From: Lentisphaeria bacterium
Lineage (GTDB): Bacteria; Verrucomicrobiota; Lentisphaeria; Victivallales; Victivallaceae
Assembly (NCBI GenBank): GCA_017502435.1
Contig: JAFVUZ010000069.1
Coordinates: 1 to 34,826, forward strand
Length of the DNA: 34,826 nucleotides
Direction of reading: 5' to 3'
Shown: in pieces, positions 21,731 to 23,660 of the stretch
Position numbering within the stretch: position 1 is the first letter of the stretch
Layout: each line of letters starts with the position of its first letter
Translations under genes and position numbers: made by a program
Notes under the pieces: model-generated
The model's input: only the letters and a program-made list of their open reading frames with translations
Database searches by the model: none
Told to the model about the DNA's origin: nothing

Positions 21731-23026
21731 TCAAACAAGAACGATTTTACGGAAATTTTTCTTTCCTGCTTTGATTACAAACTCTTTCTTATTCAATTCC
21801 GCATTTTTCAAAGCGGCTGAAACATCGGTAATTTTTACATCATCAACTGAAACAGCTCCGCCCTGGACCAGACGGCGGCCGTCACTGGTTGATTTAACCA
21901 GACCTGCTTCCTGCAAAAGTTTGCAAATCCACATACCGTCGCCATCAAACAGTGAACTTGCAAGTTCAACTGCAGGAATTGAAGTATCCTGAGCTTTGGA
22001 AATATCGATTTTTGCAATTTCAGAAGTGGTCGGAATCTTATTTTCCGGATCGGCAAAACCGAATTTTGAACCGGCGGCAAGATAAGCATCACGTGCCTGA
22101 TCTGCACCGTGGGCCAATTTTGTTGCTTCATAAGCAAGAATTTCTTTGGCACGGTTGATATTTTCACAATTTGCCAAAGCAATACATTCCTCAACCGGCA
22201 ATTCGATAGCAAATTTTTTCAACAAATCACCGAGCATGGCATCATCGCAGTTACGCCAGAACTGATAATAATCAAAAACACTTGTTCTTGCAGTATCCAG
22301 CCAGACGCTGGTTCCGCCGACGGACTTGCCGAATTTCTGTCCGGTTGCGGGATTGAGCAGCAGCGGAATAGTCAAAACATGAACTTCACGTTCATCTTCA
22401 TACATACGGCGGATAAGTTCAGTACCTGCGACCATATTGCCCCACTGATCCTGACCGCCGATTTCAAGAGTGCAGTTGTATTCTTTATTCAAATGATAAA
22501 AATCGTATCCCTGCAGGAGAGAATAACTGAATTCCAGAAATGAAAGTCCGTTTTCAAGACGGCTCTCTACAGATTTCTGTGCCAGCATCCGGTTGACAGA
22601 AAAACGGCTGCCGATGTCACGCAGAAAGTCAAGAAGTTTAATATTTCCGAACCAGTCAAAGTTGTTGACAAAATTGGCTTCCCCGTTTTCCAGAGTGATA
22701 AAACGTCCGAGCTGGGCACGCAAACATTCAACGTTGTAAGCGACCTCTTCCATAGTGATCATATTACGGGCAGTTGAACGTCCGGAGGGATCTCCGATGG
22801 CTCCGGTTGCACCGCCGATAAGAACAGTCGGCACGTGTCCGGCTTTCTGCAGCATACGCATAGCCATTACGGGCAGCAGATGTCCTACATGCAGACTGCT
22901 GCCGGTCGGGTCAAATCCGCAATAAAAAACAGCTTTTTCCTCATTAAGTTTTTTTTCTACAGCTTTTTCGTCAGTCATCTGATAGATGAAACCGCGATCT
23001 TTCAGTTCCTGAAAAATGTTGCTCAT
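21731..23026 (-). CDS. tyrS: Tyrosyl-tRNA synthetase
   Basis: 431 residues, standard bacterial TyrRS length; it charges tRNA-Tyr with tyrosine in the cytoplasm. The HIGH-type motif is HVGH in GFDPTGSSLHVGHLLPVM (about residue 48). Tyrosine-binding and tRNA-binding blocks include NFDWFGNIKLLDFLRDIG and YNCTLEIGGQDQWGN. The KMSKS equivalent is KFGKS in TGQKFGKSVGG (about residue 228). An S4-like RNA-binding domain ends the protein (LVQGGAVSVDDVKI). AAAGGA lies 8 nt before the ATG. Upstream is a leader with a tyrosine-rich leader peptide and an intrinsic terminator, which points to attenuation by tyrosyl-tRNA level. Confidence 0.98.
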   Translation of the reverse strand: MSNIFQELKDRGFIYQMTDEKAVEKKLNEEKAVFYCGFDPTGSSLHVGHLLPVMAMRMLQKAGHVPTVLIGGATGAIGDPSGRSTARNMITMEEVAYNVECLRAQLGRFITLENGEANFVNNFDWFGNIKLLDFLRDIGSRFSVNRMLAQKSVESRLENGLSFLEFSYSLLQGYDFYHLNKEYNCTLEIGGQDQWGNMVAGTELIRRMYEDEREVHVLTIPLLLNPATGQKFGKSVGGTSVWLDTARTSVFDYYQFWRNCDDAMLGDLLKKFAIELPVEECIALANCENINRAKEILAYEATKLAHGADQARDAYLAAGSKFGFADPENKIPTTSEIAKIDISKAQDTSIPAVELASSLFDGDGMWICKLLQEAGLVKSTSDGRRLVQGGAVSVDDVKITDVSAALKNAELNKKEFVIKAGKKNFRKIVLV

Positions 23027-23066
23027 TTTTTTTCCTTTATATTAACAAGTTAGTTGATTGAAAATT

Positions 23067-23201
23067 CAAAAAAAAAGATGTCCGGCAGGACATCTGTTTG
23101 AAACGTTGCAAAACACGACTGTCTCTGCATCAGTACCGGATGTAGAGATAATATCGGTAATAGTTTTGTGCGTTAAAATTTTTCATAATACTTATATTAT
23201 A
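23067..23201 (-). promoter_or_regulatory. tyrS attenuator: promoter, leader peptide, alternative hairpins, terminator
   Basis: Transcription should start near 23189 (TATAAT at 23196-23201, with TTGAAA 16 nt further up). The leader peptide occupies 23130-23186. Segment 1 (CTCTACATC, 23139-23147) overlaps Tyr codon 15 and pairs with segment 2 (GATGCAGAG, 23123-23131) with one mismatch. Segment 2 can instead pair with segment 3: GCAGAGACA (23120-23128) with TGTCCTGC (23085-23092), eight pairs with one bulged A. Segment 3 otherwise forms the terminator AGATGTCC/GGACATCT (23076-23095, loop TGCC) followed by nine T. A ribosome stalled on Tyr codons would mask segment 1, free segment 2 and prevent the terminator. 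The terminator lies 40 nt before tyrS. Confidence 0.8.
23130..23186 (-). CDS. tyrS leader peptide, six Tyr in 18 residues
   Basis: ATG at 23186 to TGA at 23130 encodes MKNFNAQNYYRYYLYIRY. Tyrosines are at 9, 10, 12, 13, 15 and 18, all in the second half, directly over the first pairing segment of the leader. The stop codon falls between segments 1 and 2, so a terminating ribosome would cover segment 2. This is the layout of amino-acid operon leader peptides such as those of trp or pheST. No Shine-Dalgarno is visible, and the predicted transcript starts within about 0-4 nt of the ATG, so translation may be leaderless. The chance of six Tyr codons in 18 at this exact site is very low. Confidence 0.82.
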   Translation of the reverse strand: MKNFNAQNYYRYYLYIRY

Positions 23202-23232
23202 TCATAAATTCAGAAAATTTCAAATATTTGTT

Positions 23233-23259
23233 TTGATTTTTTGAAAAATATGATATATT
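23233..23259 (+). promoter_or_regulatory. Possible trxA-que promoter
   Basis: TTGATT (23233-23238) and TATATT (23254-23259) with a short 15-nt spacer; the start would be near 23266, giving a leader of about 85 nt. An imperfect inverted repeat (CATCAA near 23271-23277, TTGATG near 23293-23299) lies in that leader. I saw no preQ1-riboswitch-like sequence. Confidence 0.35.
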
Positions 23260-23351
23260 GACAATGTTTCATCATCAATTTCAGGCAAATTTTTGATGAA
23301 TTTCGAAAACATCTTAATTACCAAACATTTACAATAATAAGGGGTTTTATC

Positions 23352-23660
23352 ATGGCTGAAACAATGACAATGGACGAATTTCAATCCGCAATCGCAGACG
23401 GTGTAACCCTCGTTGACTTCTGGGCAACCTGGTGCGGTCCCTGCAAAATGATGATTCCGGTCATGGAGGAATTGGCTGCGGAATTTGAAGGTTCTGCCAA
23501 AGTTATCAAACTTGACGTTGACGAAAATCAGGAAGTTTCCAGCAATTACGGAGTCCGCACCCTCCCCGCATTTTTTGTTTTCAAAGACGGCGATGTAGTA
23601 GCACAGTTCTCCGGACCGCAGTCCAAAGAAACCCTTGCAGACGCAATTAAAAACGCATAA
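23352..23660 (+). CDS. trxA: Thioredoxin
   Basis: 102 residues, typical thioredoxin length. It is a cytoplasmic dithiol reductant. The active site is WCGPCK at residues 27-32 with the preceding VDFWATW; the cis-proline is in VRTLPAFFVFKDG, and the C-terminal QFSGPQSKETLADAI is standard. AGGGG lies 8 nt before the ATG. It precedes queD by 13 nt, an unusual pairing that makes it head of a 7-deazaguanine operon. No signal peptide. Confidence 0.97.
   Translation: MAETMTMDEFQSAIADGVTLVDFWATWCGPCKMMIPVMEELAAEFEGSAKVIKLDVDENQEVSSNYGVRTLPAFFVFKDGDVVAQFSGPQSKETLADAIKNA

Follow-up and report, generated by a model that had tools for sequence, protein, structure and literature searches.

A putative leader-peptide attenuator sensing tyrosine upstream of tyrS in Victivallales (Lentisphaerota)

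Can a tyrosyl-tRNA synthetase gene be controlled by the translation of a Tyr-rich leader peptide? In Firmicutes such as Bacillus subtilis, tyrS is usually under T-box control, in which the T-box RNA binds uncharged tRNA directly. Attenuators of the pheST (PheM leader), trpL, and pheL type instead combine a leader peptide rich in the cognate amino acid, alternative 1:2, 2:3, and 3:4 hairpins, and a stop codon adjoining segment 2. The question is raised by a stretch of 34,826 nucleotides (the window) from a Lentisphaeria contig, JAFVUZ010000069.1. From the letters of this stretch, an original prediction described such an arrangement on the minus strand upstream of tyrS, and correctly placed the DNA in Lentisphaerota. 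The present analysis supports its interpretation as an attenuator. The parts in the window, their recurrence before other tyrS genes, and computed folding indicate that the tyrS leader is very probably a ribosome-mediated transcription attenuator sensing charged tRNA-Tyr.

Anatomy of the tyrS leader

The short ORF with its six Tyr codons, the three alternative pairings, and the terminator with nine T are all present as first described (Table 1), and they stand in the right order and spacing for an attenuator. The span originally marked (23067..23201) reaches from the -10 box to the terminator, and the -35 box lies just beyond it. Segments 1 and 2 can form a hairpin (CTCTaCATC / GATGcAGAG), and the 2:3 antiterminator has eight pairs and one bulge. 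Segment 2 begins at the leader stop codon, so that a ribosome at the stop would cover it. The terminator ends 41 nt before the tyrS start codon (40 nt in the original prediction) and is the only terminator-like site within 22900..23500. The leader folds more stably than its shuffles (z -3.26).

Table 1. Features of the tyrS leader region in the window (JAFVUZ010000069.1).
Feature	Position	Strand	Details
Promoter, sigma-70-like	23196..23223	minus	11/12 consensus matches
-35 box	23223..23218	minus	TTGAAA; spacer 16 nt
-10 box	23201..23196	minus	TATAAT, with TG ahead
Leader-peptide ORF	23186..23130	minus	MKNFNAQNYYRYYLYIRY; ATG 23186 to TGA 23130; 18 codons, 6 Tyr
Segment 1	23139..23147	minus	CTCTACATC; over leader codons 14-16, Tyr15 included
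Segment 2	23120..23131	minus	Pairing with segment 1: GATGCAGAG (23131..23123); with segment 3: GCAGAGACA (23128..23120)
Segment 3	23085..23092	minus	TGTCCTGC (23092..23085); overlaps terminator 5' arm
Intrinsic terminator (3:4 hairpin)	23068..23095	minus	AGATGTCC-TGCC-GGACATCT at 23095..23076; stem 8 bp, loop TGCC; nine-T run 23076..23068
tyrS, tyrosine--tRNA ligase	21731..23026	minus	TIGR00234, E 2e-110; ATG at 23026
Thioredoxin gene	23352..23660	plus	TIGR01068; divergent

The synthetase gene is single-copy in its assembly and has its own Shine-Dalgarno sequence, AAGGA. Since the thioredoxin gene is divergent, the tyrS leader occupies its own intergenic region. Given the usual 6-8 nt from the -10 box, transcription is predicted to start ~2-4 nt before the leader ATG. 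No Shine-Dalgarno sequence was found ahead of the leader ORF in the window, and with a start so near the ATG the ORF would be nearly leaderless. Its translation would thus have to be leaderless, which counts against the attenuator reading.

The original prediction saw no T-box sequence, and a T-box riboswitch can be rejected: Rfam gave no match, and the T-box motif is not above chance, with none near tyrS. Rfam leader families (Trp_leader, Phe_leader, and similar) gave no match at the gathering score and, even with E relaxed to 10, no relevant hit. The same search of the other tyrS upstream regions returned nothing.

Recurrence and conservation across Victivallales

The upstream regions of 112 distinct tyrS genes, nearly all from the order Victivallales, were compared, with that of the window as L001. 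A Tyr-rich short ORF by a loose criterion (at least four Tyr and 15% Tyr) occurs in 8 of the 112 regions (L001, L002, L010, L015, L022, L029, L051, and L187). It sits far upstream of tyrS in L187, whereas the other seven also have a terminator within the last 200 nt. Such a terminator is present in only 8 of the 104 remaining regions. The original prediction held that relatives with the terminator and no Tyr-rich ORF would speak against it, and some do occur. A strict criterion (at least five Tyr, the ORF being followed after 10-70 nt by a terminator that precedes tyrS) retains six of the 112 real regions. The strict search applied to other amino acids found ORFs with a terminator once for Ala and three times for Leu.

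The leader peptides of the relatives are MKNFNAQNYYRYYLYTTF in L002/L031, whose TyrS is 88% identical to that of the window; MKTFSNYSRRAYYLLYYYCGAIVSV in L022/L083 (strain zth2, complete genome CP071032); MKLFSNYYRRAYYLLYYYCGMTVSA in L029/L086; MKKFLEHAYYYSYYYRTRAGRR in L010/L057; MKTPFTEKQNTFVYNAYRYLYRELSR in L051; and MLLERYYDAYPYAYLRCGERRSLAA in L015. In L002 and the window alike, 9 nt separate the -10 box from the leader ATG; in L010 the distance is 7 nt. No clear promoter was seen in L022 and L029.

On the Victivallales TyrS tree, the distribution of the element needs five changes and so marks five separate places. The comparison of relatives proposed with the original prediction therefore has two sides: Tyr-rich ORFs recur with terminators in five separate lineages, but most tyrS relatives are without the element. 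Its distribution is sporadic, and even the congener L009 lacks it, which indicates that the element is not essential. The element-free sister genes L043, L007, L012, and L025 have different upstream sequence, often another gene. Outside Victivallales, none of 60 regions sampled across the phylum has a Tyr ORF with a terminator before tyrS. Either the element was gained several times or it was lost many times, and the TyrS tree alone does not say which.

Two further observations concern tyrS genes of this sample. In L164, which has no Tyr ORF, a terminator hairpin comes only a few bases after a TATAAT -10-like sequence directly ahead of tyrS. The two span -55 to -26 relative to the matched start (the start codon is uncertain) and are possibly another kind of attenuator. 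The TyrS of some genomes of another family, f4 (G064, G067, G068, G069, G070, and G080) is 70-75% identical to that of the window, and the TyrS of the congeners of G080 about 55%. These identities suggest replacement of tyrS, or its transfer from one family to another.

The closest comparison is between the window and L002. Tyr stands at codons 9, 10, 12, 13, and 15 in both, and codon 18 is Tyr in the window and Phe in L002; five of the window's six Tyr codons thus persist in its nearest relative. Of the codon changes, three are synonymous, and the three nonsynonymous ones all lie in codons 16-18, where the changes in the 1:2 helix also fall. All eight pairs of this helix are kept in the relative, with two compensatory double changes (T-A to C-G and C-G to T-A) and one half change. 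Sliding the 1:2 partner by 1 to 3 columns makes all double changes vanish. The covarying stems sought in the original prediction are thus found for the 1:2 stem, in a comparison of two sequences, where a shuffle control cannot reach significance. Segment 3 is invariant, the terminator is identical in L031/L002, and segment 2, like the terminator, differs very little between the window and L002, whereas the spacer has diverged. Between zth2 and L086, all shared Tyr codons are kept, two of them with a synonymous change.

These patterns bear on the simplest alternative, that a Tyr-rich ORF arose by chance from AT-rich sequence beside an ordinary terminator. Dinucleotide shuffles (30 sets of the 112 regions, strict criterion) yielded a mean of 0.13 Tyr ORFs, none with a terminator. 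The five lineages include the less AT-rich leaders L010 and L015, and the Tyr codons are conserved through synonymous changes. Moreover, transcription of the divergent trxA runs the other way, which leaves the terminator no upstream gene to end. A chance origin is hardly credible on this evidence, even though the window region is AT-rich, TAT and TAC codons arise easily, and such an ORF is missing from most relatives.

Predicted switching with ribosome position

In the proposed mechanism, RNA polymerase would start a few bases ahead of the leader ATG, and a ribosome would follow through the Tyr-rich ORF. With plentiful charged tRNA-Tyr, the ribosome would reach the stop codon and cover segment 2, leaving segment 3 free; the 3:4 terminator would then form, and transcription in the cell would end before tyrS. 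If charged tRNA-Tyr runs low, the ribosome would stall at the Tyr codons and cover segment 1, leaving segment 2 free. Segments 2 and 3 would pair, the terminator would not form, and tyrS would be transcribed, restoring tRNA-Tyr charging.

The window 2:3 duplex has an energy of -14.7 kcal/mol. The complementarity of segment 2 with the terminator 5' side exceeds that of shuffles in the window (p = 0.027) and in L002 (0.024), L010 (0.001), L022 (0.020), L029 (0.021), and L051 (0.018), but not in L015 (0.37). Folding was then constrained by an assumed ribosome footprint of 15 nt behind the P site and 12 nt from the A site on, with the transcript folded up to the terminator loop. At equilibrium, which ignores kinetics, the terminator 5' arm of the window is captured with a probability of 0.93-0.94 when the ribosome is stalled at Tyr9 to Tyr15; the value falls to 0.57 for a stall at Tyr18 and to 0.16 for a ribosome on the stop codon. 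Stalled and at-stop values are 0.85 and 0.32 in L010, about 0.7 and 0.31 in L022, and 0.81 and 0.54 in L051. In L029, capture is 0.8-0.97 for most stall sites, drops to about 0.2 at Tyr17 and Tyr18, and is 0.48 at the stop. The switch of L002 has the same direction as that of the window but is weak. Compared with shuffled spacers, the stalled-versus-stop difference has p values of 0.007 (L001), 0.32 (L002), 0.09 (L010), 0.59 (L015), 0.05 (L022), 0.07 (L029), and 0.15 (L051). The stalled-ribosome folding suggested earlier hence gives a clear switch in the window, a weaker one elsewhere, and none in L015, where terminator and antiterminator are both unconvincing.

L015, which has the ORF and no computable switch, speaks for another mode of action of the ORF: translational coupling or polarity, of the Rho or reinitiation type, in place of an antiterminator. 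However, a strong intrinsic terminator lies between the ORF and tyrS, tyrS has a Shine-Dalgarno sequence of its own, and the 2:3 complementarity is found in four of the five lineages, which together make coupling or polarity very unlikely.

Without a ribosome, the antiterminator is the favoured fold of the window RNA, and transcripts that escape translation might therefore read through. The strong structure in this fold, and the existence of attenuators with other sensors, would suit a leader RNA bound by a protein or ligand, for example by TyrS on its own leader, with the ORF incidental. E. coli ThrRS binds its own leader in this manner, acting on translation. Beyond the switch, however, no RNA structure is conserved between lineages; the Tyr codons recur and the RNA sequence does not; and Rfam has no match. 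Binding of this kind is an extremely unlikely explanation. Ribosome-mediated attenuation remains the preferred reading.

Other leaders in Victivallales and known attenuators

Leader ORFs were also found at trpE. In strain zth2 (L292), L293, and genome G020 (L294), a pair of Trp leader ORFs precedes trpE, and a terminator comes after each; in zth2 these are MKKILNSKNIWWWLR and MTNHTTNKYFGWWWRSGQGP, lying with their terminators ~50 to 324 nt before trpE. One or two Trp-rich ORFs with terminators precede trpE in L324, L331, L332, L334-L336, L338, and L340. Ribosome-mediated attenuation therefore looks native to Victivallales. The tandem arrangement of Trp leader-peptide attenuators before trpE is seen in L292, L293, L294, and L324, from three genera of the order, and a literature search on tandem attenuators gave Salmonella mgtCBR and no trp operon. 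In the genomes of the tyrS comparison, no convincing cognate leader was found before trpS, hisS, thrS, or hisG, which argues that the tyrS leader is no by-product of the search. A Tyr leader was not found at tyrA. Short Phe-containing ORFs overlapping terminators at pheS (L191/L192 and L196-L198) were rejected, as the terminators look like those of the upstream gene.

The assembly of the window (G000) has two pheS copies (C16 and C166) with the same terminator hairpin upstream of both. One may be foreign, and the contamination estimate is 5%. trpE was not found in the incomplete assemblies of G000, G001, G002, G011, and many relatives, although three of these (G000, G001, and G011) do have hisG and tyrA; tryptophan auxotrophy is possible in the window's genus.

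Among synthetase genes, the E. coli pheST attenuator is the cited precedent (PMC1262725; PMC11802643). Like pheST, trpL, and pheL, the window leader has a cognate-rich peptide, alternative hairpins, and a stop beside segment 2, and, like pheST, a terminator before a synthetase gene. It differs in its use of Tyr instead of Phe or Trp, its tyrS target, its place in Lentisphaerota, its nearly leaderless ORF, and the lack of an Rfam leader match. Seliverstov et al. (2005, PMC1262725) predicted classical attenuators for the Streptomyces genes trpS and leuS, likewise synthetase genes outside Proteobacteria, but for Trp and Leu in Actinobacteria. Leader-peptide attenuation is also predicted for the uORFC-8-2 motif before cysS in Rhodobacterales (PMC8632094) and for a His leader that in bacilli lies upstream of hisZ and hisS paralogues (PMC2965389). 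These concern synthetase or hisS-family genes as well, but with Cys and His and in other phyla. The AroR leader of Corynebacterium glutamicum aroF contains Phe-Tyr-Phe and is reported to respond to limitation of Phe, not Tyr (PMC11802643); it shares Tyr in the leader peptide with the window but answers Phe and controls a biosynthetic gene. Tyrosine control was listed as T-box only in the 2005 comparative paper (Seliverstov et al., PMC1262725). T-box control of tyrS involves the same gene, signal (tRNA-Tyr charging), and outcome (antitermination) as proposed here, but the window has no T-box.

The original prediction knew of no leader-peptide attenuator for tyrS, and none was found in a search of the open literature covering 5.39 million papers. 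The mechanism is already known; what is new, as far as could be checked, is its use with this amino acid, with this target gene, and in this phylum. It is fairly likely that tyrosine and tyrS here have their first dedicated leader-peptide attenuator. Within a single order of a phylum for which no description of ribosome-mediated attenuation was found, it would repeatedly have originated at tyrS, or been retained and lost there, with a nearly leaderless ORF in some lineages. As far as the open literature shows, and with priority uncertain, it is tyrosine among the aromatic amino acids for which no dedicated leader-peptide control has been described.

Ribosome-mediated attenuation thus probably reaches Lentisphaerota, where trpE carries it too; in some gut and deep-sea bacteria of the phylum, tyrS appears to be controlled in this way. 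The cultured strain zth2 has a complete genome, so that the predicted response to tyrosine is measurable. As the same solution appears at scattered places on one gene tree, the ease with which attenuators originate becomes testable.
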